In this document: in pieces, positions 1 through 15,085 of the stretch
Layout: the number at the start of each line of letters is the position of its first letter
Numbering within the stretch: the stretch's first letter is position 1
The notes under the pieces: generated by a model
What the model was told of the DNA's origin: nothing
Database searches by the model: none
The model's input: the letters and a program-made list of their open reading frames with translations, nothing else
Assembly (NCBI GenBank): GCA_946534785.1
Contig: CAMNCY010000006.1
Span: 1 to 38,965, forward strand
Direction of reading: 5' to 3'
Origin: an uncultured Lachnospiraceae bacterium
GTDB taxonomy: Bacteria > Bacillota > Clostridia > Lachnospirales > Lachnospiraceae
Length of the DNA: 38,965 nucleotides
Made by a program: the position numbers and the translations under genes

Positions 1-872
1 AGGGTCTGAAAGCCGACGCCGTCCGCATAGGCGGCGGAATCGAGCCAGGCCAGGATTCTCTGGCTGCGGAAGTTCCCTTCCCCGATACTGTTGACCGCCC
101 GGTAGACCCAAAGGGCCGCGGCACCGATAACGCCGAAGCCGAGGACGAAGAATTTCAGGTAATCCTTGCTGGCGACGAAAAGCATACCGGCCGCGATCGC
201 GGCGACAATAATCGCAGAACTCAGGTTCCTTGTGATCACATAGATCAGGACGACATGGAGCATCGCAGGCATCATGACGTAGATTGCCCCCTTGATGGTC
301 TTCAGGTTATTCTCGCTGATTCTGGTGATGATAACGGCCGTAACAATGATCACGGCGATCTTGGCGATCTCCGCCGGCTGGAGCGAGAGCGGGCCGATAT
401 AGATCCACCGTTTTGCACCGTTTCTGGTGACGCCGATGAACTGGACCAGGACGACGAGTACGACGGAGGCCAGATAGATCAGGGTGCTCATTTTCTCATA
501 TACATGGTAGTTCAACCGTGAAACAAAGACCATGAAGCCGAGTCCGATGATCGTGGAAAGCAGCTGATGCTTCAGATAATAGGCCGCATCTCCTCCGTAT
601 TCCAGGGCCGACTCGTAGGAACTGGTAGAATACAGGATGACCAGTCCGAAGATCAGAAGGAAAATAACGACAAAGATCAGGGTGTAATCCCGGAGAGTGT
701 CTTTGGAACCCGTTCCGGACAGGAGCGTAAATCTCCTCGAAGCCGTCCTCGCAGGGGCGTGTTTCACCGCGGCAGCAGGCCTTGCGGCCATTCCCTGTTT
801 TGCTGCCGGATGATTCCTGGATGCAGGACGGTTCACACTGCCCTTTCTGTTGTTATTCCTGCGGTTTGCCAT
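1..872 (-). CDS. ftsW: FtsW/SpoVE-type SEDS peptidoglycan polymerase (partial, C-terminus outside window)
   Basis: This gene is missing from the ORF track because it runs off the left edge; I translated it by hand. It starts with ATG at 872 and about 290 residues are visible. The product begins MANRRNNNRK, has a basic, Ala/Arg-rich cytoplasmic leader of about 60 residues, and then repeated hydrophobic segments, the first near residues 62-82 and ending LVILYSTSSYESA, which is typical of the first FtsW/RodA/SpoVE helix. The segment NGAKRWIYIGPLSLQPAEIAK matches the conserved SEDS loop before the PAE motif. SEDS proteins polymerise glycan strands from lipid II together with a class B PBP, and such a PBP is encoded two genes upstream. 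The start lies 18 bases after mraY, so the two are probably co-transcribed. FtsW and SpoVE cannot be told apart from this part alone. There is no murD between it and mraY. Confidence 0.93.
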   Translation of the reverse strand, partial: MANRRNNNRKGSVNRPASRNHPAAKQGMAARPAAAVKHAPARTASRRFTLLSGTGSKDTLRDYTLIFVVIFLLIFGLVILYSTSSYESALEYGGDAAYYLKHQLLSTIIGLGFMVFVSRLNYHVYEKMSTLIYLASVVLVVLVQFIGVTRNGAKRWIYIGPLSLQPAEIAKIAVIIVTAVIITRISENNLKTIKGAIYVMMPAMLHVVLIYVITRNLSSAIIVAAIAAGMLFVASKDYLKFFVLGFGVIGAAALWVYRAVNSIGEGNFRSQRILAWLDSAAYADGVGFQT

Positions 873-890
873 AGATCAATAACCCTGTTA

Positions 891-1856
891 TCACCAGAGG
901 CCCAGAAGACCGATGCAGGCGCAGACGACCGTCACGATCGTAAAGAGCGCGACGACCCTGACTTCTTCCCAGCCGCCCAGTTCAAAATGATGATGGATCG
1001 GTGCCATGCGGAAGAAGCGCTTGCCATGTGTCTTTCTGAAATACGTTACCTGAATGATCACCGATACGACTTCGATGAAATAGATAAAGCCGACGACCGG
1101 GATCAGAAGAGGGAGCTGAAGCATATAGGCAATGCCGACGACGAAACCGCCGAGGGCCAGTGACCCGGTATCTCCCATGAATACTTTTGCCGGGTGCGCA
1201 TTGTACAGAAGGAAGCCCAGAAGCGCCCCCGTCATTGCGCCGCATGCCGCGCCGGCGCCCGAACCCGCAAGCACCGCCGCGACCGTAAAGAACAGCGTGA
1301 CCGCGATCGTAACGCAGGACGCAAGTCCGTCCACACCGTCCGTGAAATTCGTTCCGTTGACCGTTGCCACGGCAATGAAGATCAGTGCCGGAAAAGCAAG
1401 AGGCCCCAGATTCAGGATCACATCCTTTGCAAAAGGTATTTTCATAGTGAGCGGGATATGATTGAAATGAACGACGATCAGCCCGAACACGATGGAGATA
1501 AGGATCTGAAAGAGCATCTTCTGCTTTACGCTGAGGCCGTCCGAACGTTTTTTGGTGACCTTGATAAAGTCATCCACAAAGCCCACTGCCCCGAATCCGA
1601 GGGTCATGAACAGGACCGGCAGGACCTCCGGACACCACGGGCTCATGATAAGACATGCGGCCGTAAAGCCCGCGAGGATCATGATCCCGCCCATATTGGG
1701 CGTTCCCGTCTTGGAAAGGTGCGTCTTGGGACCGTCGTCCCGCTCCGTCTGCTGGGCCTTGAGACGGATCAGCGCCGGGATCAGGGGTTTTCCCACTGCG
1801 GCGCTGACGGCCAGGCCGATCAGTAACGGTATGATGATATGTAAAAGCTGTTCCAT
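891..1856 (-). CDS. mraY: Phospho-N-acetylmuramoyl-pentapeptide transferase MraY
   Basis: MraY transfers phospho-MurNAc-pentapeptide from UDP to undecaprenyl phosphate, making lipid I at the inner face of the membrane. The 321-residue protein is full length for the family and almost entirely hydrophobic helices. Family signatures are visible: the early loop PKTHLSKTGTPNMGG, the FVDDFIK aspartate pair, NGTNFTDGVDGL with further conserved acidic residues, and the late APIHHHFE histidine cluster. The start is supported by an AAGGAG ribosome binding site five bases before ATG. It sits 27 bases downstream of the division PBP gene and 18 bases upstream of ftsW, as part of the mraZ division and cell wall cluster. 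Identity is certain. Confidence 0.98.
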   Translation of the reverse strand: MEQLLHIIIPLLIGLAVSAAVGKPLIPALIRLKAQQTERDDGPKTHLSKTGTPNMGGIMILAGFTAACLIMSPWCPEVLPVLFMTLGFGAVGFVDDFIKVTKKRSDGLSVKQKMLFQILISIVFGLIVVHFNHIPLTMKIPFAKDVILNLGPLAFPALIFIAVATVNGTNFTDGVDGLASCVTIAVTLFFTVAAVLAGSGAGAACGAMTGALLGFLLYNAHPAKVFMGDTGSLALGGFVVGIAYMLQLPLLIPVVGFIYFIEVVSVIIQVTYFRKTHGKRFFRMAPIHHHFELGGWEEVRVVALFTIVTVVCACIGLLGLW

Positions 1857-1883: not shown

Positions 1884-4640
1884 TTACTGCTGTCCCTCTG
1901 CCGGCTGCGGGGTCTCTTCCGCAGGTGCGGGCTCTTCCGCAGGTGCGGGAGCCTCCTGTGCCGGTGCGGGCTCCTCTGCGGGTGCCGGCTGTTCTTCTGC
2001 AGGTGCCGGTGTCTCCTCCGCGGGTGCCGGTGCCTGTTCTTCCTGCTGCGCAGGAGCCTCGGTCTGTGTTTCCTGTCCGGGCGCCTGCGGCTCCGTTCCC
2101 GCTGCGGTCGACTCTTCCGTATCCGTGCCCATGACGGTATCGCCATAGACATAACCGGTGTCGGGATCGATGAGTTTCCCGGTATCGGGCTGGATATAGT
2201 TTCCGGTCTCAGGATCCATCGGATACTGTTTCCAGCTTCCGCCGGAGTACTGATCTATAATACCATCCCCGTCAATATCTATGCCCTTCGGAGCCACCTG
2301 CGTGATATCCGTCACGCCCTCCGGCGGCTTGTCGGAGTCGATGACGCCGTCGTTGTCCGTATCGTAGAAGTCCGCTCTTCCGTCACCGTTGGTATCCACC
2401 GCATCCGCAAAGCCGTCGCCGTTCGCATCGACCGGGATATCGGCAATGCCGTCCCCGTTTCCGTCGACGGAATCCATAATGCCGTCGCCGTTGGTATCCA
2501 GGTTCAGGACAAGCGCCTTGGGCAGCTTGGAGATCGTGCCCGCGCCATAGGCCAGCGTATTGTCCAGATTCATGTCGAGAAGCTCCTGCTCCTCTTTCTG
2601 GGAAAGCGGTTCCGTCATGTAAATATTCAGATACGGAAGGATCTCTGTCAAGACCTTGCGTACGATCCTGGTCGCATACTTGGCATCATCCTGCATGGGC
2701 GTATTGCATCTGTCCACAACGACGTAGATCGCGATCTGGGGATTCTCTGCCGGCGCATATCCCATAAAGGAAACGACATATTCCCGGTTTCCGCGGGGCA
2801 GTGTTTCCGCCGTTCCCGTTTTTCCGCCGATCATGTAGCCGGCAGGCCTTGCCGTGTGGCCGGTTCCGTTATCTCCGGCAACGACCGCGAGAGTCGCTTC
2901 CCGGACCTTGGCGCTTGTCGTCTCCGAAACGGTCCTTTTAAGGAGCCGGGGCTCGATCGTCTTGATCGTCGCACCGCCGGCGCTCGTGATCTTGCTCACG
3001 ATATGCGGCTCATAATAATAGCCGCCGTTGACAAGGGAGGAGAACGCCGTGATCATCTGGATCATCGTCACGTCGAAGTTCTGGCCGAAGGAATTGGTCG
3101 CAAGGTCCGCAACGCCCATTTTCTCCTCGGGAATAAGGAGCGTGTCCGTTCTTGCTTCATCCGCAAGGTCGATATTGGTCCGAAGTCCGAAGCCGAAGAT
3201 CCGCTGGAACTTGCAGAAATTCTCGATCCCCGTCATTTCCGCCATCTGCATCAGGGCAACGTTGCAGGAGCGCTCGATGGCCTGGTCGACCGTCAGGAGT
3301 CCGTCACCGTCCGTATTATGGCACTTGATGGGCCAGCCTCCCACATTCAGCCGTCCGCCGCACATAAAGGTCTCATCGCCCTCCATGGCGCCGGATTCCA
3401 GGCCGGCCGCCAGGGTAAAGGGCTTTGCCACCGATCCCGGCTCATAATAGTTGGAGACGCAGAAATTCGTCCACAGATAATTCAGGTACCGGGACTGCTC
3501 TTCCTGGGTATCCAGGGCATCCACATCTTCCTGCGTCATATATTCGTCCGTCGGCTCGTCCCGCTCGTTCAGGACGGGAAGGCCCACGATCCTTGACAGG
3601 TCATAGGGATCCGAAAGGTCATAATTCGGATAGCTGGCCATTCCCAGGATGTTGCCCGTATTGACCTCCTGCACGATACAGCCGACGTTGTTGGCGCCGT
3701 ACCCTTCATGCACGCTGCCTGCGTACTGATCGTTGAATTCCTTGAGATATTTTTCAATGATACTCTGGATGTTCGCATCCAGGGTAAGCTCGAGATTATT
3801 GCCGTCGACCGCTTCGATGATCGTTCTCTCAAGCGTGGATGTGTCATTAAGATATCCGTATTCTCTTCCGGGCGTGCCGTTAAGCACACTGTTATAGTAC
3901 TCCTCCAGGCCGAAGTTCCCCTGGTTGAGACTGTTGGAGAAGCCGATCACGTCGCAGGCCAGGGTCCCTCCCGGATATGAACGGATATAGGCCGGCTCAT
4001 AGACGATGCCCTGGATGTAATTGTTGGAGGTCACGACGGCAGCCGCCTCGTCGACCTGTTTCTTGAGCGCATCGTACCGGGAATCGGACTCATCGACCTC
4101 GGCGAGGGCATCCCGCAGTGAATGATAGTTTTCCCTTGCATCGATCTTCTGCTGGTCGAGTGCTGCCTTCTCGCTGTAGGGAAGATTCTTCTTGACGATG
4201 TAATACCGGTTTTCCGGATTGCTGCGGCAGTAGGCCTCCATCTCCTGGCGGTCCAGCCCGAGCCTTACCAGTTCTTCCATGGTCGGCTCCCAGTAAGAGC
4301 TGATGCCCTCATCGTTCTGGGGGCCATGGTTGATCTGGTAGGAATCGATCACCACATTGTAGACCAGGTCGCTGGTGGCCAGGATCGTCCCCTTGGCGTC
4401 TGTGATGGTGCCCCGCTTGAAGGGAAGCTCCCGGGAATCGTACAGCTGCTGGGAAAGGATCTGCCTTGTATATTCCTCTCCGTTATTGCGGTTGATCTCG
4501 ACAAGACGGAATATCAATACGGCAAAAGCCAGCAGTACCATAAAAAACAGTACTACCAGCTTCTTCTGCATTCTGTCTTCAAACAGTCTTATTCTGGACT
4601 TTTTATTCGGTTTCCTGTGATTTCTGCTGCTGTTTTCCAT
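1884..4640 (-). CDS. Class B penicillin-binding protein (FtsI/SpoVD type) with calcium-loop-like repeats and a Pro-Ala-Glu tail
   Basis: This is a division transpeptidase that cross-links peptidoglycan peptides outside the membrane. Layout of the 918 residues: basic cytoplasmic leader 1-27, one membrane anchor about 28-46, a dimerisation domain containing the conserved RGTITDAKG (76-84), and the transpeptidase domain. The catalytic motifs are all present: SVAK at 403-406, SCN at 458-460 and KTG at 607-609. PASTA domains, common in SpoVD and PBP2b, are not seen. Instead residues 715-796 carry six DxDxDG-type loops and residues 858-918 are rich in Pro, Ala, Glu and Gln; both would lie outside the cell. 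The gene follows ftsL in the mraZ cluster, which supports a septal role. No good Shine-Dalgarno is visible before the ATG at 4640, so expression may depend on translation of ftsL. FtsI and SpoVD roles cannot be separated by sequence here. Confidence 0.95.
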   Translation of the reverse strand: MENSSRNHRKPNKKSRIRLFEDRMQKKLVVLFFMVLLAFAVLIFRLVEINRNNGEEYTRQILSQQLYDSRELPFKRGTITDAKGTILATSDLVYNVVIDSYQINHGPQNDEGISSYWEPTMEELVRLGLDRQEMEAYCRSNPENRYYIVKKNLPYSEKAALDQQKIDARENYHSLRDALAEVDESDSRYDALKKQVDEAAAVVTSNNYIQGIVYEPAYIRSYPGGTLACDVIGFSNSLNQGNFGLEEYYNSVLNGTPGREYGYLNDTSTLERTIIEAVDGNNLELTLDANIQSIIEKYLKEFNDQYAGSVHEGYGANNVGCIVQEVNTGNILGMASYPNYDLSDPYDLSRIVGLPVLNERDEPTDEYMTQEDVDALDTQEEQSRYLNYLWTNFCVSNYYEPGSVAKPFTLAAGLESGAMEGDETFMCGGRLNVGGWPIKCHNTDGDGLLTVDQAIERSCNVALMQMAEMTGIENFCKFQRIFGFGLRTNIDLADEARTDTLLIPEEKMGVADLATNSFGQNFDVTMIQMITAFSSLVNGGYYYEPHIVSKITSAGGATIKTIEPRLLKRTVSETTSAKVREATLAVVAGDNGTGHTARPAGYMIGGKTGTAETLPRGNREYVVSFMGYAPAENPQIAIYVVVDRCNTPMQDDAKYATRIVRKVLTEILPYLNIYMTEPLSQKEEQELLDMNLDNTLAYGAGTISKLPKALVLNLDTNGDGIMDSVDGNGDGIADIPVDANGDGFADAVDTNGDGRADFYDTDNDGVIDSDKPPEGVTDITQVAPKGIDIDGDGIIDQYSGGSWKQYPMDPETGNYIQPDTGKLIDPDTGYVYGDTVMGTDTEESTAAGTEPQAPGQETQTEAPAQQEEQAPAPAEETPAPAEEQPAPAEEPAPAQEAPAPAEEPAPAEETPQPAEGQQ
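1887..2069 (-). repeat. Pro-Ala-Glu low-complexity tail repeat in the PBP gene
   Basis: The last roughly 60 codons encode repeated APAEE/PAPAQE units. The DNA shows degenerate tandem copies of a gcaggtgcgg-like unit on the plus strand. Such extended, acidic, proline-rich tails often act as flexible spacers through the wall. The DNA repeats could change number by slippage. The extent is approximate. Confidence 0.8.
2253..2498 (-). repeat. Six DxDxDG calcium-loop-like repeats inside the PBP gene
   Basis: The encoded segment holds DTNGDGIMD, DGNGDGIAD, DANGDGFAD, DTNGDGRAD, DTDNDGVID and, after a 17-residue break, DIDGDGIID. This spacing resembles thrombospondin type 3 and dockerin-like calcium loops. 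The DNA is imperfectly repeated as well, with several copies of a gccgtcgccgtt-like unit on the plus strand. Calcium binding is inferred from the motif and not shown. Confidence 0.85.
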
Positions 4641-4665: not shown

Positions 4666-5217
4666 TTACTTGTCTACTTTTGAGACCTGACGGACATAAT
4701 CCCCGATCTCGTTCTCGTAGCTGATCACCTGTCCCTCGTCTGCATAGGTCATTCCCAGCTCCGTGATCGCCCGGTACTTGATATCGTCCAGACTGATCCT
4801 TCCGTTGATATCATTCAGTGTCTGGTCATTCCTGACACGGATGTTGCTGAGCTCCTTCTCCAGGCCCGCGACTTCCTGTGTGACGCTGGTCAGCTGGTAC
4901 TGGAGGCTGCAGTATTTTACAAGGAACACGGACATGACGGAAAAGATCATGACCATAAAAACAACCAGCGCCGGATTCATGCGGCGGCTCTTCTCCCGGT
5001 TATAACGAGCCGCCATCCTGGCTCTGTTCAGCTCTTCTTCGCTGCGTCTTCTCCGGACGTCCGGGAGGCGCTGCGGCTGCACCTTCTGTGCGGCAGAACC
5101 GTAATTATAGTATGCGGAAGCCTTCGCATAACGCGCCGCATTTCTTCCGCCGCCTGTGCGATTATCCTGTCTGTAGGACGAATTTCTCCCTCCTGCAGTA
5201 ATTCTTCTTCCTGCCAT
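4666..5217 (-). CDS. ftsL: FtsL-like cell division protein
   Basis: The 183-residue product is a bitopic membrane protein: a long, basic, low-complexity cytoplasmic part (1-80, with RRRR at 55-58), one hydrophobic helix at about 82-100, then an extracytoplasmic coiled-coil-like stretch (about 104-140) and a short C-terminal part with the ITELGM.YADEGQVI pattern common in FtsL/DivIC proteins. FtsL joins FtsB/DivIC and DivIB at the septum and regulates FtsW with its PBP. Sequence conservation in this family is low, so the call rests on topology plus position between rsmH and the PBP gene, which is the classic ftsL slot. It is longer than the usual 100-120 residues because of the leader. The stop lies 25 bases before the PBP start and the gap to rsmH is 35 bases. 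Confidence 0.85.
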   Translation of the reverse strand: MAGRRITAGGRNSSYRQDNRTGGGRNAARYAKASAYYNYGSAAQKVQPQRLPDVRRRRSEEELNRARMAARYNREKSRRMNPALVVFMVMIFSVMSVFLVKYCSLQYQLTSVTQEVAGLEKELSNIRVRNDQTLNDINGRISLDDIKYRAITELGMTYADEGQVISYENEIGDYVRQVSKVDK

Positions 5218-5252: not shown

Positions 5253-6188
5253 TCATGCCTTCTCAAAAACACGGAGTTTCGCGCTTGCGCTTCGTTTATT
5301 GCGCTCCAGCTCTTCCCTGCCGGGAAGGACTGCTTTTCTGGTGATCTGTTTTCCCCTCGATACCTTGCCGCATACGCAGACCGGAAATTCCGGCGGGCAT
5401 GTACACGGCGATTCGTTTCTGCGGAACGCGTTCTTGACGATCCTGTCTTCCAGAGAGTGGAAGGTGATGATCGCAAGCCGTCCTCCCGGTGCCAGGACTC
5501 CGATCAGTCTGTCTATGGAGTCCTCCAGGACATCCAGTTCCCGGTTGCAGGCGATCCGCACCGCCTGGAAGGTCCTCTTGCAGGGATTTCCTCCCTTTAC
5601 CTGCATCTTTGCGGGAATGCTCCTGCGGATGATCGCCGCAAGTTCTCCCGTTGTCTCAAGAGGTTTTTCCTCTCTTGCCTTTACGATGTTGGCCGCGATC
5701 TTTCCGGCGAATTTCTCTTCTCCGTAATCCCGGATGATCCGGAAAAGCTCTTTCTCCGGCCATTCGTTCAGGATGTTCCTTGCGCTTACGGCCCCCTCCT
5801 GGTCCATCCGCATGTCCAGCGGCTCATCCCGGTTATAGGAGAAACCTCTTTCCGGATTGTCCAGCTGGAAGGAGGAAACTCCCAGGTCCAGCAGGATCCC
5901 GTCAACGCTTTCGATTCCCATTCCGGCAAGGATCTCCGGAATGTTTTCATAATTGCTCTTTACGATCGTTACTCTGTCGTGGAACGCCGTAAGGCGCGCG
6001 GCCGCTGCCGCAATCGCGTCTTTGTCCTGATCCACACCGATCAATCGTCCGCCTTCCGTTAGCCGGGTCGCGATCTCATGGGAGTGACCGGCGCCTCCTA
6101 GCGTTCCGTCCACATAGATTCCATCTGGTCTGATATGCAGGTATTCAATGACTTCATTGAACAAGACCGGTTCATGCTGAAATTCCAT
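5253..6188 (-). CDS. rsmH: 16S rRNA (cytosine-1402-N4)-methyltransferase RsmH
   Basis: RsmH (formerly MraW) methylates N4 of C1402 in 16S rRNA with S-adenosylmethionine, fine-tuning the decoding centre. The 311-residue length is normal. The start [12 protein letters not shown], the SAM-binding [21 protein letters not shown] followed by RGFSY, and the late [15 protein letters not shown] are hallmark motifs. The end carries the expected [14 protein letters not shown]. It begins 12 bases after mraZ and precedes ftsL, the usual order of this cluster. The ribosome binding site is weak, which suggests coupling to mraZ translation. Confidence 0.98.
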
Positions 6189-6200
6189 TTTTCATACCCG

Positions 6201-6650
6201 TCAGATCTGGAACCCGTTCGCAAGCAGGTTTGCCGCGATGGAACTGATACGTTCCTTCGAGATCTTCTGCTTGTGCAGTTCATAGGTCTCTTCATCCCAG
6301 AGCTCGGCTCTGGTCCCGGTGCCGACAAAGGTGACGTTCTTCTCGAGTCCGCCCGCTGTGCGGAGCTGCTGCGGAAGGAGGATCCTTCCCTGCTTGTCGA
6401 TCTCCACCTCCAGTGTCCTGGATTCGTAATAACGGATCAGTTCACGAACTTCCGCCGTATTGGTCGGCAGGCTTTTGAGCTTTCCTTCGAATTCTCTCCA
6501 GCTGTCCATGTCGTAGATGATCAGGCATTCGTCCAGACCTTCTCCGATCATGAACCTGGTCCCCAGGATGTCCCGGAACCTGGAGGGAACGCTCAGCCTT
6601 CCCTTCGCGTCCAGCGTATGATGATATTCTCCGTTAAAGAATCCCGACAT
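6201..6650 (-). CDS. mraZ: Transcriptional regulator / nucleoid-associated protein MraZ
   Basis: MraZ is a small DNA-binding protein of the AbrB-like fold that forms rings and represses its own division cluster in species studied. Two SpoVT/AbrB-like halves are visible, with the signatures GEYHHTLDAKGRLSVPSRF near the start and EIDKQGRILLPQQLR in the second half. The ORF track starts at 6728, but the family start is the internal ATG at 6650 (MSGFFNGEY), giving 149 residues. An AAAGGA sequence lies about 13 bases before it, and the upstream extension would run through the operator-like repeats. It is the first gene of the mraZ-rsmH-ftsL-pbp-mraY-ftsW run. Confidence 0.95.
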   Translation of the reverse strand: MSGFFNGEYHHTLDAKGRLSVPSRFRDILGTRFMIGEGLDECLIIYDMDSWREFEGKLKSLPTNTAEVRELIRYYESRTLEVEIDKQGRILLPQQLRTAGGLEKNVTFVGTGTRAELWDEETYELHKQKISKERISSIAANLLANGFQI

Positions 6651-6692
6651 CGCCGACCCGCGTTCCTTTCTGCACCGGCTGCTTTCCTTCGT

Positions 6693-6743
6693 TTCATCCC
6701 ACTTTAACGAACTTTGTGGGTCAATCATGGGAATTCATCCCAC
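6693..6743 (-). promoter_or_regulatory. Candidate MraZ operator repeats
   Basis: Read on the minus strand, the segment between promoter and mraZ has GTGGGATGAA twice (plus-strand ttcatcccac at 6693-6702 and 6734-6743). It also contains AAAGTTCGTT directly followed by AAAGTGGGAT, a 10-base period. Published MraZ sites include 10-base-spaced AAAGTG[T/G] boxes in Mollicutes and TGGGN repeats in E. coli, so both patterns fit. A further CCCA pair lies between the copies in the opposite sense. Binding is inferred. Confidence 0.6.
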
Positions 6744-12889: not shown

Positions 12890-15085
12890 TCACTGCTCGG
12901 GCACGAAATTCAGCTGTCTTGTAATGACCTTCTGTCCGTTCTGCGCATCCGGCGCCGTGGAAGGATAGCTCATCGACAGCGTTCCGGTGGGAGAAATGAT
13001 ATGCGTATATCCGGTCGGGATCGGGAATGTCGTGGTCGTGGTCTCTAGAAGCTTGGTGCCGTCAGAAGCAATGATGACCGCGTATACCTGGGTCCCGGGC
13101 ACATAATCGGGCGCTTCCGCTGCCGTAGGTGCCGTGACCTCTGCGGAATAACTGTAGGTGACCGGTGTCTGGGGCTCCTCGGTTTCATTCGATTTTGCCA
13201 CCTTCAGAAGGATCTTCGTATCCGGTTCCACATAGGAGCCCGCTTCTTCGCTCTGGCTGCTGACAAGACCCGCCATGTTGGGATCCGTCGCTTCCACTTC
13301 GGCGCTTTCATAGGTAAGCCCTGCCTCGGTAAGGCGGGCCATGGCCTCCTCGATGGTCATCCCGGTGACCTTGGGCACCTGGACCCTTCCGTCCTTATCC
13401 TGGCCCGTACTGATCCGGATCGTCACGGTGGATCCGCTCGGTGCGAATTCGCCGGCTGCCGGCACCTGGGAGATGATATGGTCCATCTCCACCTCGTCCG
13501 AAGCTTCCTCCTCCTTATTGACCGTAAAACCTTTATTACGGATCGTGGAGACGGCCTCCGCAAGGCTCTTTCCCGTTACGTCCGGGACCTCGATCCCGTT
13601 CCTTCCGGCGCTGACCGTAAGGACGATGCTGGAACCCGAAGCGACCTGGGTGCCTTCCTGCACATTGGAACCCACGACCTGCCCGGCTTCGTAATCATCC
13701 GATTCCACGTAGGTGATCTCGGCAGTAAGGCCAAGATCCTGCAGGGCCTGGCGCATTTCTTCGCCGTTGTTGCCGATCACGGCCGGTACGGTCACCATGA
13801 CCGCCTGATCCTGCGGCACGGACTCTTCCGGCTCCTCGTTTCCGGAGGGAACAAGACCCAGCTTCATGGCGGCATAGGCGATAATGCCAAGACCGATCAG
13901 GATGGCGGCGATCACCGCAAGGACCGTGATGAGCCTGTCTTTTCCGGGACTGTAGTCATTCTCCTCGAAGTCGTCCGTAAAGTCATCCTCATCATACCGT
14001 TTCCGGACGGTGCGGGTCCTGCGCACGCGTTCCGGCTGTCTGGAAGGAGCGGGCTTTACCGGCTCATACGGCTCGTCCTCTCCGTAATCGTCCTCATAAT
14101 GATAATCTTCGTGATAGTCTTCGTAATCATCTTCCTCGGGATACTCCTCCTCGCGGATCGCATCATCCCGGTAAAGATGGCGCCTGATATCTTCCCGTTC
14201 CTTGCCGGTGCTGATCCTGGTCGCCGACTGTTCATCGGGATGGATCACCCTGACAAAATTGTCGTTGGGGTGGATCAGGGACTGCTTCAGGTCCGCGATC
14301 AGCTCCTGCATGTTCTGGTATCTTCTGTCCGGGCTCTTTTCACAGCATTTGAGCACGATCTGCTCCACGCTGTTGGGGATGTCCGGCACGAAATCCCTGG
14401 GAGAAGGCATCGGCGACTGGATATGCTTGATCGCGATGGCGACCGTGGTCTCCCCGTTGAAGGGCACCCGGCCTGTCAGCATTTCGAAAATACTGATGCC
14501 CAGGGAATAGATATCGCTTCGTTCATCGCTGTAGCCGCCGCGCGCCTGCTCGGGAGACGTGTAGTGGACCGATCCCATGACGTTGGACGTGATGGTATTG
14601 CTGGTCGCCGCCTTCGCGATGCCGAAATCCGTCACCTTGACCTTTCCGTCCTTGGAAATGATGATGTTCTGCGGCTTGATATCCCGGTGGATGATATGAT
14701 TGTTATGCGCCGCCTCCAGGCCCATGGAGACCTGGATCGCAATACTGATCGCTTCCTTCACCGAAAGACGGGACTTTTTCTCGATATACTGCTTGAGCGT
14801 AATGCCGTCGACCAGTTCCATGACGATATAATACATGCCCTTTTCATCGCCGACGTCATAGACGTTGACGATGTTGGGATGCATCAGTCCTGCTGCCGCC
14901 TGGGCTTCCACGCGGAATTTGGACACAAAATTGGCATTATCGGAAAATTCCTGTTTCAGTGCCTTGATGGCAACGAATCTGTTGAGTTTATGGTCTTTTG
15001 CCCTGTAGACAACCGACATGCCGCCCGTGCCGATCTTTTCCAGCACTTCATATCGATCTGCTATCAGCATTCCGATCTTAACCAT
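12890..15085 (-). CDS. pknB: PASTA-domain Ser/Thr protein kinase (PrkC/Stk1 type)
   Basis: This membrane kinase senses cell wall fragments or lipid II and phosphorylates division, wall and translation proteins. Layout of the 731 residues: kinase domain about 10-270 with a glycine loop at 19-24, VAIK lysine at 41, HRDIKPQN at 133-140 and DFG at 153-155; a cytoplasmic linker 271-383 that is strikingly acidic and tyrosine-rich at 312-345, then basic at 353-363; one membrane helix about 384-407; three extracellular PASTA domains at about 431-493, 497-560 and 568-630; and a further beta-rich segment 638-731 that I do not recognise. The ribosome binding site GAAAGGAA sits before the ATG. The PP2C phosphatase is encoded 59 bases upstream and rsgA follows, the classic arrangement. 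Confidence 0.97.
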   Translation of the reverse strand: MVKIGMLIADRYEVLEKIGTGGMSVVYRAKDHKLNRFVAIKALKQEFSDNANFVSKFRVEAQAAAGLMHPNIVNVYDVGDEKGMYYIVMELVDGITLKQYIEKKSRLSVKEAISIAIQVSMGLEAAHNNHIIHRDIKPQNIIISKDGKVKVTDFGIAKAATSNTITSNVMGSVHYTSPEQARGGYSDERSDIYSLGISIFEMLTGRVPFNGETTVAIAIKHIQSPMPSPRDFVPDIPNSVEQIVLKCCEKSPDRRYQNMQELIADLKQSLIHPNDNFVRVIHPDEQSATRISTGKEREDIRRHLYRDDAIREEEYPEEDDYEDYHEDYHYEDDYGEDEPYEPVKPAPSRQPERVRRTRTVRKRYDEDDFTDDFEENDYSPGKDRLITVLAVIAAILIGLGIIAYAAMKLGLVPSGNEEPEESVPQDQAVMVTVPAVIGNNGEEMRQALQDLGLTAEITYVESDDYEAGQVVGSNVQEGTQVASGSSIVLTVSAGRNGIEVPDVTGKSLAEAVSTIRNKGFTVNKEEEASDEVEMDHIISQVPAAGEFAPSGSTVTIRISTGQDKDGRVQVPKVTGMTIEEAMARLTEAGLTYESAEVEATDPNMAGLVSSQSEEAGSYVEPDTKILLKVAKSNETEEPQTPVTYSYSAEVTAPTAAEAPDYVPGTQVYAVIIASDGTKLLETTTTTFPIPTGYTHIISPTGTLSMSYPSTAPDAQNGQKVITRQLNFVPEQ

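Follow-up and report, generated by a model that had tools for sequence, protein, structure and literature searches.

The window analysed here is the whole 38,965-nucleotide stretch (positions 1 to 38,965) of contig CAMNCY010000006.1 from an uncultured Lachnospiraceae bacterium (NCBI GenBank assembly GCA_946534785.1). The host genome (G000) comprises 2.17 Mb in 230 contigs and is 88% complete. The window contains a dcw cluster in the order mraZ, mraW/rsmH, FtsL-like protein, PBP1, mraY and SEDS gene, where PBP1 denotes the dcw-encoded penicillin-binding protein (PBP) P0001 and its orthologues. The genes are as follows.

6201..6728, minus strand: mraZ (dcw context; PF02381)
5253..6188, minus strand: mraW/rsmH (dcw context; PF01795, E = 2.5e-122)
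4666..5217, minus strand: FtsL-like small membrane protein, assigned by position and a transmembrane segment, with no Pfam match
1884..4640, minus strand: whole gene of the class B PBP P0001 (FtsI/SpoVD-like), 918 residues, assigned from the open reading frame and Pfam
891..1856, minus strand: mraY (dcw context), downstream of the PBP1 gene (PF00953 and position)
3..872, minus strand: SEDS protein of the dcw cluster (FtsW/SpoVE family), truncated at the contig end and presumed to be the partner of PBP1

Class B PBPs belong to the core machinery of cell division and serve as drug targets. P0001 had been described in the first-pass annotation as a complete class B PBP, and this was borne out. 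Pfam matches were obtained to PF00905 (E = 1.6e-58) and PF03717 (E = 4.7e-11), the transpeptidase domain is complete and its SxxK, SxN and KTG motifs are invariant in an alignment with 16 relatives; together with an N-terminal dimerisation domain, PF00905 and these motifs make up the defining features of the class. The closest solved structure is that of SpoVD (PDB entry 7rcz, E = 2.5e-60). Assignment to the SpoVD equivalog TIGR02214 was rejected at 362 bits against a cut-off of 688 bits, and the sporulating host expected for this equivalog was not recognized either (no SpoIVA in 23 genomes of the genus). The following parts were distinguished within the protein.

4494..4571, minus strand: N-terminal membrane-spanning segment, approximately residues 24–49, MQKKLVVLFFMVLLAFAVLIFRLVEI; a helix covers residues 15–60 in the structure model
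2649..3680, minus strand: transpeptidase domain PF00905, residues 321–664 (S403xxK, S458CN, K607TG), from Pfam and alignment
2505..2612, minus strand: helix EPLSxxExxEL and short linker, residues 677–712, common to tailed and tail-less relatives
2337..2498, minus strand: five DxNxDGxxD loops, residues 715–768, spaced 11/12/11/11, from pattern and alignment
2253..2279, minus strand: sixth, separate loop DIDGDGIID, present in four of 11 aligned loop-bearing PBPs
2130..2237, minus strand: octamer-repeat module WKQYPMDPETGNYIQPDTGKLIDPDTGYVY, residues 802–837 (36 residues), OCRE-like and found on this PBP across the family
1887..2129, minus strand: Pro-Ala-Glu-rich low-complexity end, residues 838–918 (81 residues), fast evolving, pLDDT < 50

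The last 204 residues of P0001 hold six DxNxDG loops, the number given in the first-pass annotation. The pattern D-x-[DN]-x-D-G-x-x-D matches six times, from residues 715, 726, 738, 749, 760 and 788 onwards, between window positions 2498 and 2253. Spacings among the first five are 11, 12, 11 and 11 residues, so that the 12th residue of a loop usually doubles as the opening Asp of its successor; the sixth follows 28 residues beyond the fifth, just ahead of the module WxxYxxDPxTG-x8-G-x4-DPxTG. When the tail was shuffled 20,000 times a mean of 0.007 loops was obtained, with a maximum of two. The acidic proline-rich end that had also been noted is present at residues 838–918, although the earlier description, which placed it after the loops, overlooked the conserved 36-residue module that separates the two (2130–2237).

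Eleven loop-bearing PBP1 sequences, which share only ∼50–60% identity, were aligned over the five loops. Asp occupies positions 1 and 5 without exception and position 9 in all but one case, which is Asn; only Asp or Asn occurs at position 3, and the intervening positions are variable. Nei–Gojobori dN/dS values for close pairs were 0.02–0.07 in the loops and 0.03–0.08 in the enzyme core; for more distant pairs, in which synonymous sites are near saturation, they were 0.14–0.17 and 0.08–0.11, respectively. The PBP1 array is under purifying selection equal or nearly equal to that on the enzyme core, while the sequence behind it usually gave 0.2 or more. At the DNA level the array still shows tandem repeats of 33–36 bases. 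The conserved positions match those required of a calcium site, which makes the loops putative calcium-binding sites, and Dx[DN]xDG is well known as a calcium motif across many folds (PMC3123361).

In an AlphaFold model of the tail alone, built on a shallow alignment, pLDDT was 74–83 over most of the array and low elsewhere; short strands lie between the loops and no helices occur in the array. In the full-length model the array had a lower pLDDT, of 45–73. A Foldseek search with the tail model gave nothing under E = 1 (best match OCRE at E = 2), and phmmer of the tail against the PDB gave only weak EF-hand-type or compositional matches (best E = 0.015). As to the comparison with domain and structure libraries that had been proposed as a check, no known calcium domain exceeded threshold in Pfam or NCBIfam for the whole of P0001 or for the tails, and the Pfam TSP_3, dockerin and EF-hand models gave no at-threshold match to the tail.

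The thrombospondin type 3 (TSP3) repeat (TSP_3, PF02412) is the closest known arrangement. It too consists of extracellular tandem DxDxDGxxDxxD motifs with no helices between them, ∼11–13 residues apart, the last Asp of one motif being used by the next, and the N-type tandem is reproduced by the five loops at 11/12/11/11. The array differs from TSP3 in having no cysteines and no C-type motifs and in sitting on a transpeptidase. The TSP_3 model scored 7.0 bits of the 25 needed on the tail of a relative and found no match on that of the window. Dockerin type I and EF-hand domains share the DxNxDG loop chemistry. Both were rejected, dockerin for the 11-residue spacing and, in the model, the lack of 22-residue duplicated loop–helix units and flanking helices, and the EF-hand for the lack of a helix–loop–helix in the model; Dockerin_1 gave E = 3 on the tail of a second, PbpA-like PBP described below. 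Of the two spacings suggested earlier, TSP3-like or dockerin-like, the former was retained and the latter given up (11 residues, no intervening helix).

The module has the consensus W-x2-[FY]-x2-DPxTG-x2-[IV]-DP-x2-G-x2-[IV]-DPxTG over 36–37 residues and no Pfam entry of its own. Of the 397 family genomes, 57 contain it, each in a single copy, and all 17 module-bearing reading frames that were checked are PBP1 orthologues (55–77% identity). A profile of the module matched the OCRE structures of RBM10 and RBM5 (E = 5e-5). The OCRE model PF17780 (cut-off 24.7 bits) gave 14.3 and 15.6 bits on the window module and exceeded the cut-off on the PBPs of two relatives (G015, 26.4 bits; G149, 27.7 bits). 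The two share an eight-residue DPxTG–aromatic period; unlike OCRE, the module is bacterial and has only three octamers. Because PF17780 also matches unrelated YD-repeat proteins, the resemblance is likely to be convergent. The OCRE domain of RBM5 binds proline-rich peptides (PMC5127646).

The module is older than the array. The distance between it and the EPLSxxExxEL helix is 52–88 residues of low-complexity sequence in species without loops and 82–118 residues in species with them, so that the array occupies the site of a linker between these two elements. The loops had been presented as standing in place of PASTA domains. SpoVD and PBP2B belong to the same enzyme family as PBP1 and occupy the same dcw position, and those of Bacillus carry C-terminal PASTA; PBP1 lacks it and has the calcium-type array and DPxTG module instead. 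The tail-less members of the genus are without PASTA as well (no match on PBP1 in 16 genus members at E 0.1), which indicates that PASTA was already absent when the loops arrived, and the loops appear to have replaced a linker rather than PASTA directly. In this genome PASTA repeats remain on the Stk kinase at 12890–15085, a Stk1-family Ser/Thr kinase that continues for ∼100 residues beyond them.

The genus set comprised 62 genomes, in 59 of which PBP1 was read. The array was found in 14 of ∼60 species, 12 with the long form and two (G012 and G016) with three loops; this count answers the question of how many relatives share the fusion, which is not family-wide. In the remaining members PBP1 either has the module but no loops or stops shortly beyond the transpeptidase domain. 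Low-complexity sequence is readily acquired and lost by tails in the genus. When 397 family genomes were searched with a tail profile and the matches inspected, no array was seen on any PBP outside the genus. The same search of 391 class genomes, in which matches were listed but not read locus by locus, gave no PBP array outside the genus; the other listed matches come from within the family, and most of them span no more than the module. A scan of a contig collection with the tail returned arrays from Bacteroidota, Bacilli metagenome-assembled genomes and others, and the PBPs among them came only from Lachnospiraceae. The same PBP tail is present in records from uncultured Lachnospiraceae of rumen and gut (RUG304, RUG227, RUG057, UW_TS_LCO4_1 and Firmicutes bacterium CAG:791). 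A tblastn search for plasmid spread of the array gave no match. In five loci (L081, L085, L087, L088 and L091) from species of the genus without PBP loops, a small protein with a single hydrophobic segment at its N-terminus carries four DxDxDG loops with a 13-residue period; it is unrelated to the PBPs.

The loops had been described as a feature of PBP1, but a second PBP of the same genome bears three. This PbpA-like class B PBP (PF00905, PF21922) is encoded on contig C48 of G000 adjoining its own FtsW/RodA gene, and its three loops, which repeat every 11 residues exactly, are kept in all 12 long-array genomes. A third class B PBP, MrdA-like and adjoining RodA, has no loop tail in G000 or G004. 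When 22 genomes were searched for a DNA pattern of two tandem loops at 11 residues, all matches fell in PBP1 or the PbpA-like PBP, and a reversed-pattern control gave none. As far as these searches reach (the exact 11-residue DNA pattern and the profile search, other spacings lying outside them), the arrays appear to mark two of the three SEDS-paired synthases and not the elongation type. PBP1 loops accompany PbpA loops in each of the 12 species that have the latter, and G012 and G016 have three PBP1 loops and a PbpA without a tail. In a quick tree of the PBP core, the loop state changes once on PBP1 and once on the PbpA-like PBP; with one gain each a pairs test of the correlation is powerless, and the association has no independent replication. 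In G000 the two arrays share a 29-base identical stretch (window 2472–2498; C48 6722–6748, L254), the longest among the pairs compared, and a short gene conversion is possible. When gene conversion between the PBP1 and PbpA-like arrays was tested, G000 alone stood out, and the overall permutation value of 0.02 is carried mainly by this genome. In G025 (L129) the PbpA-like tail has no loops and a DPxTG stretch resembling the module of its own PBP1.

In Clostridia that sporulate, SEDS/bPBP pairs encoded in the dcw cluster can serve in sporulation (PMC10693644). SpoIVA was not found in 23 genomes of the genus, of which 18 are of good quality, with a positive Bacillus subtilis control. A vegetative division role for PBP1 is consequently more likely, and a septal enzyme is plausible. 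In these genomes the dcw cluster retains SEDS and bPBP genes although SpoIVA was not found, unlike the correlation with sporulation reported in PMC10693644.

We propose that the C-terminus of PBP1 forms a stalk, placed on the extracytoplasmic side by the usual topology of class B PBPs, in which the five overlapping tandem loops would bind calcium in the manner of N-type TSP3 motifs. Where sister species have a low-complexity linker, PBP1 would have a compact rod stiffened by calcium. This rod would fix the distance and orientation, relative to the transpeptidase, at which the older DPxTG module and the disordered acidic end are presented to the wall or a partner. The addition of a similar array to the second SEDS-paired PBP in the same lineage would point to a need common to both division-type synthases and not felt by the elongation synthase. 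We regard a calcium-rigidified, TSP3-like stalk as about evenly balanced between right and wrong. Holding the module at a distance cannot be the whole function of the array, since loops occur without it both in G036, in which PBP1 has kept the loops and lost the module, and on the PbpA-like tails.

This persistence of loops without the module would suit an array that serves for calcium-dependent docking, through which the two loop-bearing PBPs would bridge each other or a shared wall polymer or protein and so couple the synthases at the septum. The confinement of arrays to two SEDS-paired, division-type PBPs and the presence of PBP1 loops in every species with PbpA loops are in its favour; G012 and G016, with PBP1 loops and no PbpA tail, argue against a heterotypic contact as the original role, and we consider docking unlikely. 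Slippage of repeats could instead have produced a mere acidic, hydrophilic spacer that needs no calcium, and both the readiness with which tails of the genus gain and lose low-complexity sequence and the 33–36-base repeats would fit such an origin. The strict conservation of ligand positions and spacing, under selection near that of the core and next to a low-complexity end that is not conserved, makes a simple spacer quite improbable.

TSP3-like loops alter their shape with calcium in other proteins. The array might in a similar way sense extracellular calcium and gate transpeptidase or SEDS activity through the EPLSxxExxEL helix, which connects the enzyme to the array in every loop-bearing copy. 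The same helix is present in species without loops, however, the calcium of rumen and gut would probably keep the sites occupied and no signalling partner was seen, so that sensing is very improbable. Whether as stalk, bridge or switch, an action of extracellular calcium on septal wall synthesis through matching TSP3-like arrays on both division-type SEDS-paired transpeptidases is put forward tentatively, as a rather doubtful proposition; if true, it would amount to a calcium-dependent divisome of a previously undescribed kind.

To our knowledge, few C-terminal additions of class B PBPs are known, PASTA above all. Among open-licence papers, none was found that joins a penicillin-binding protein with thrombospondin type 3 or a class B PBP with a C-terminal extension and calcium. 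The array on two SEDS-paired PBPs of one lineage suggests a connection of extracellular calcium with wall synthesis that can be tested directly, and the DPxTG module, carried by PBP1 in many Lachnospiraceae genera, is a second uncharacterised part of the enzyme. In another genus (G326, L221) a secreted-looking protein starts with FDLNGDGILDSCDNDGDGKAELLDSNGDG right after its signal sequence.
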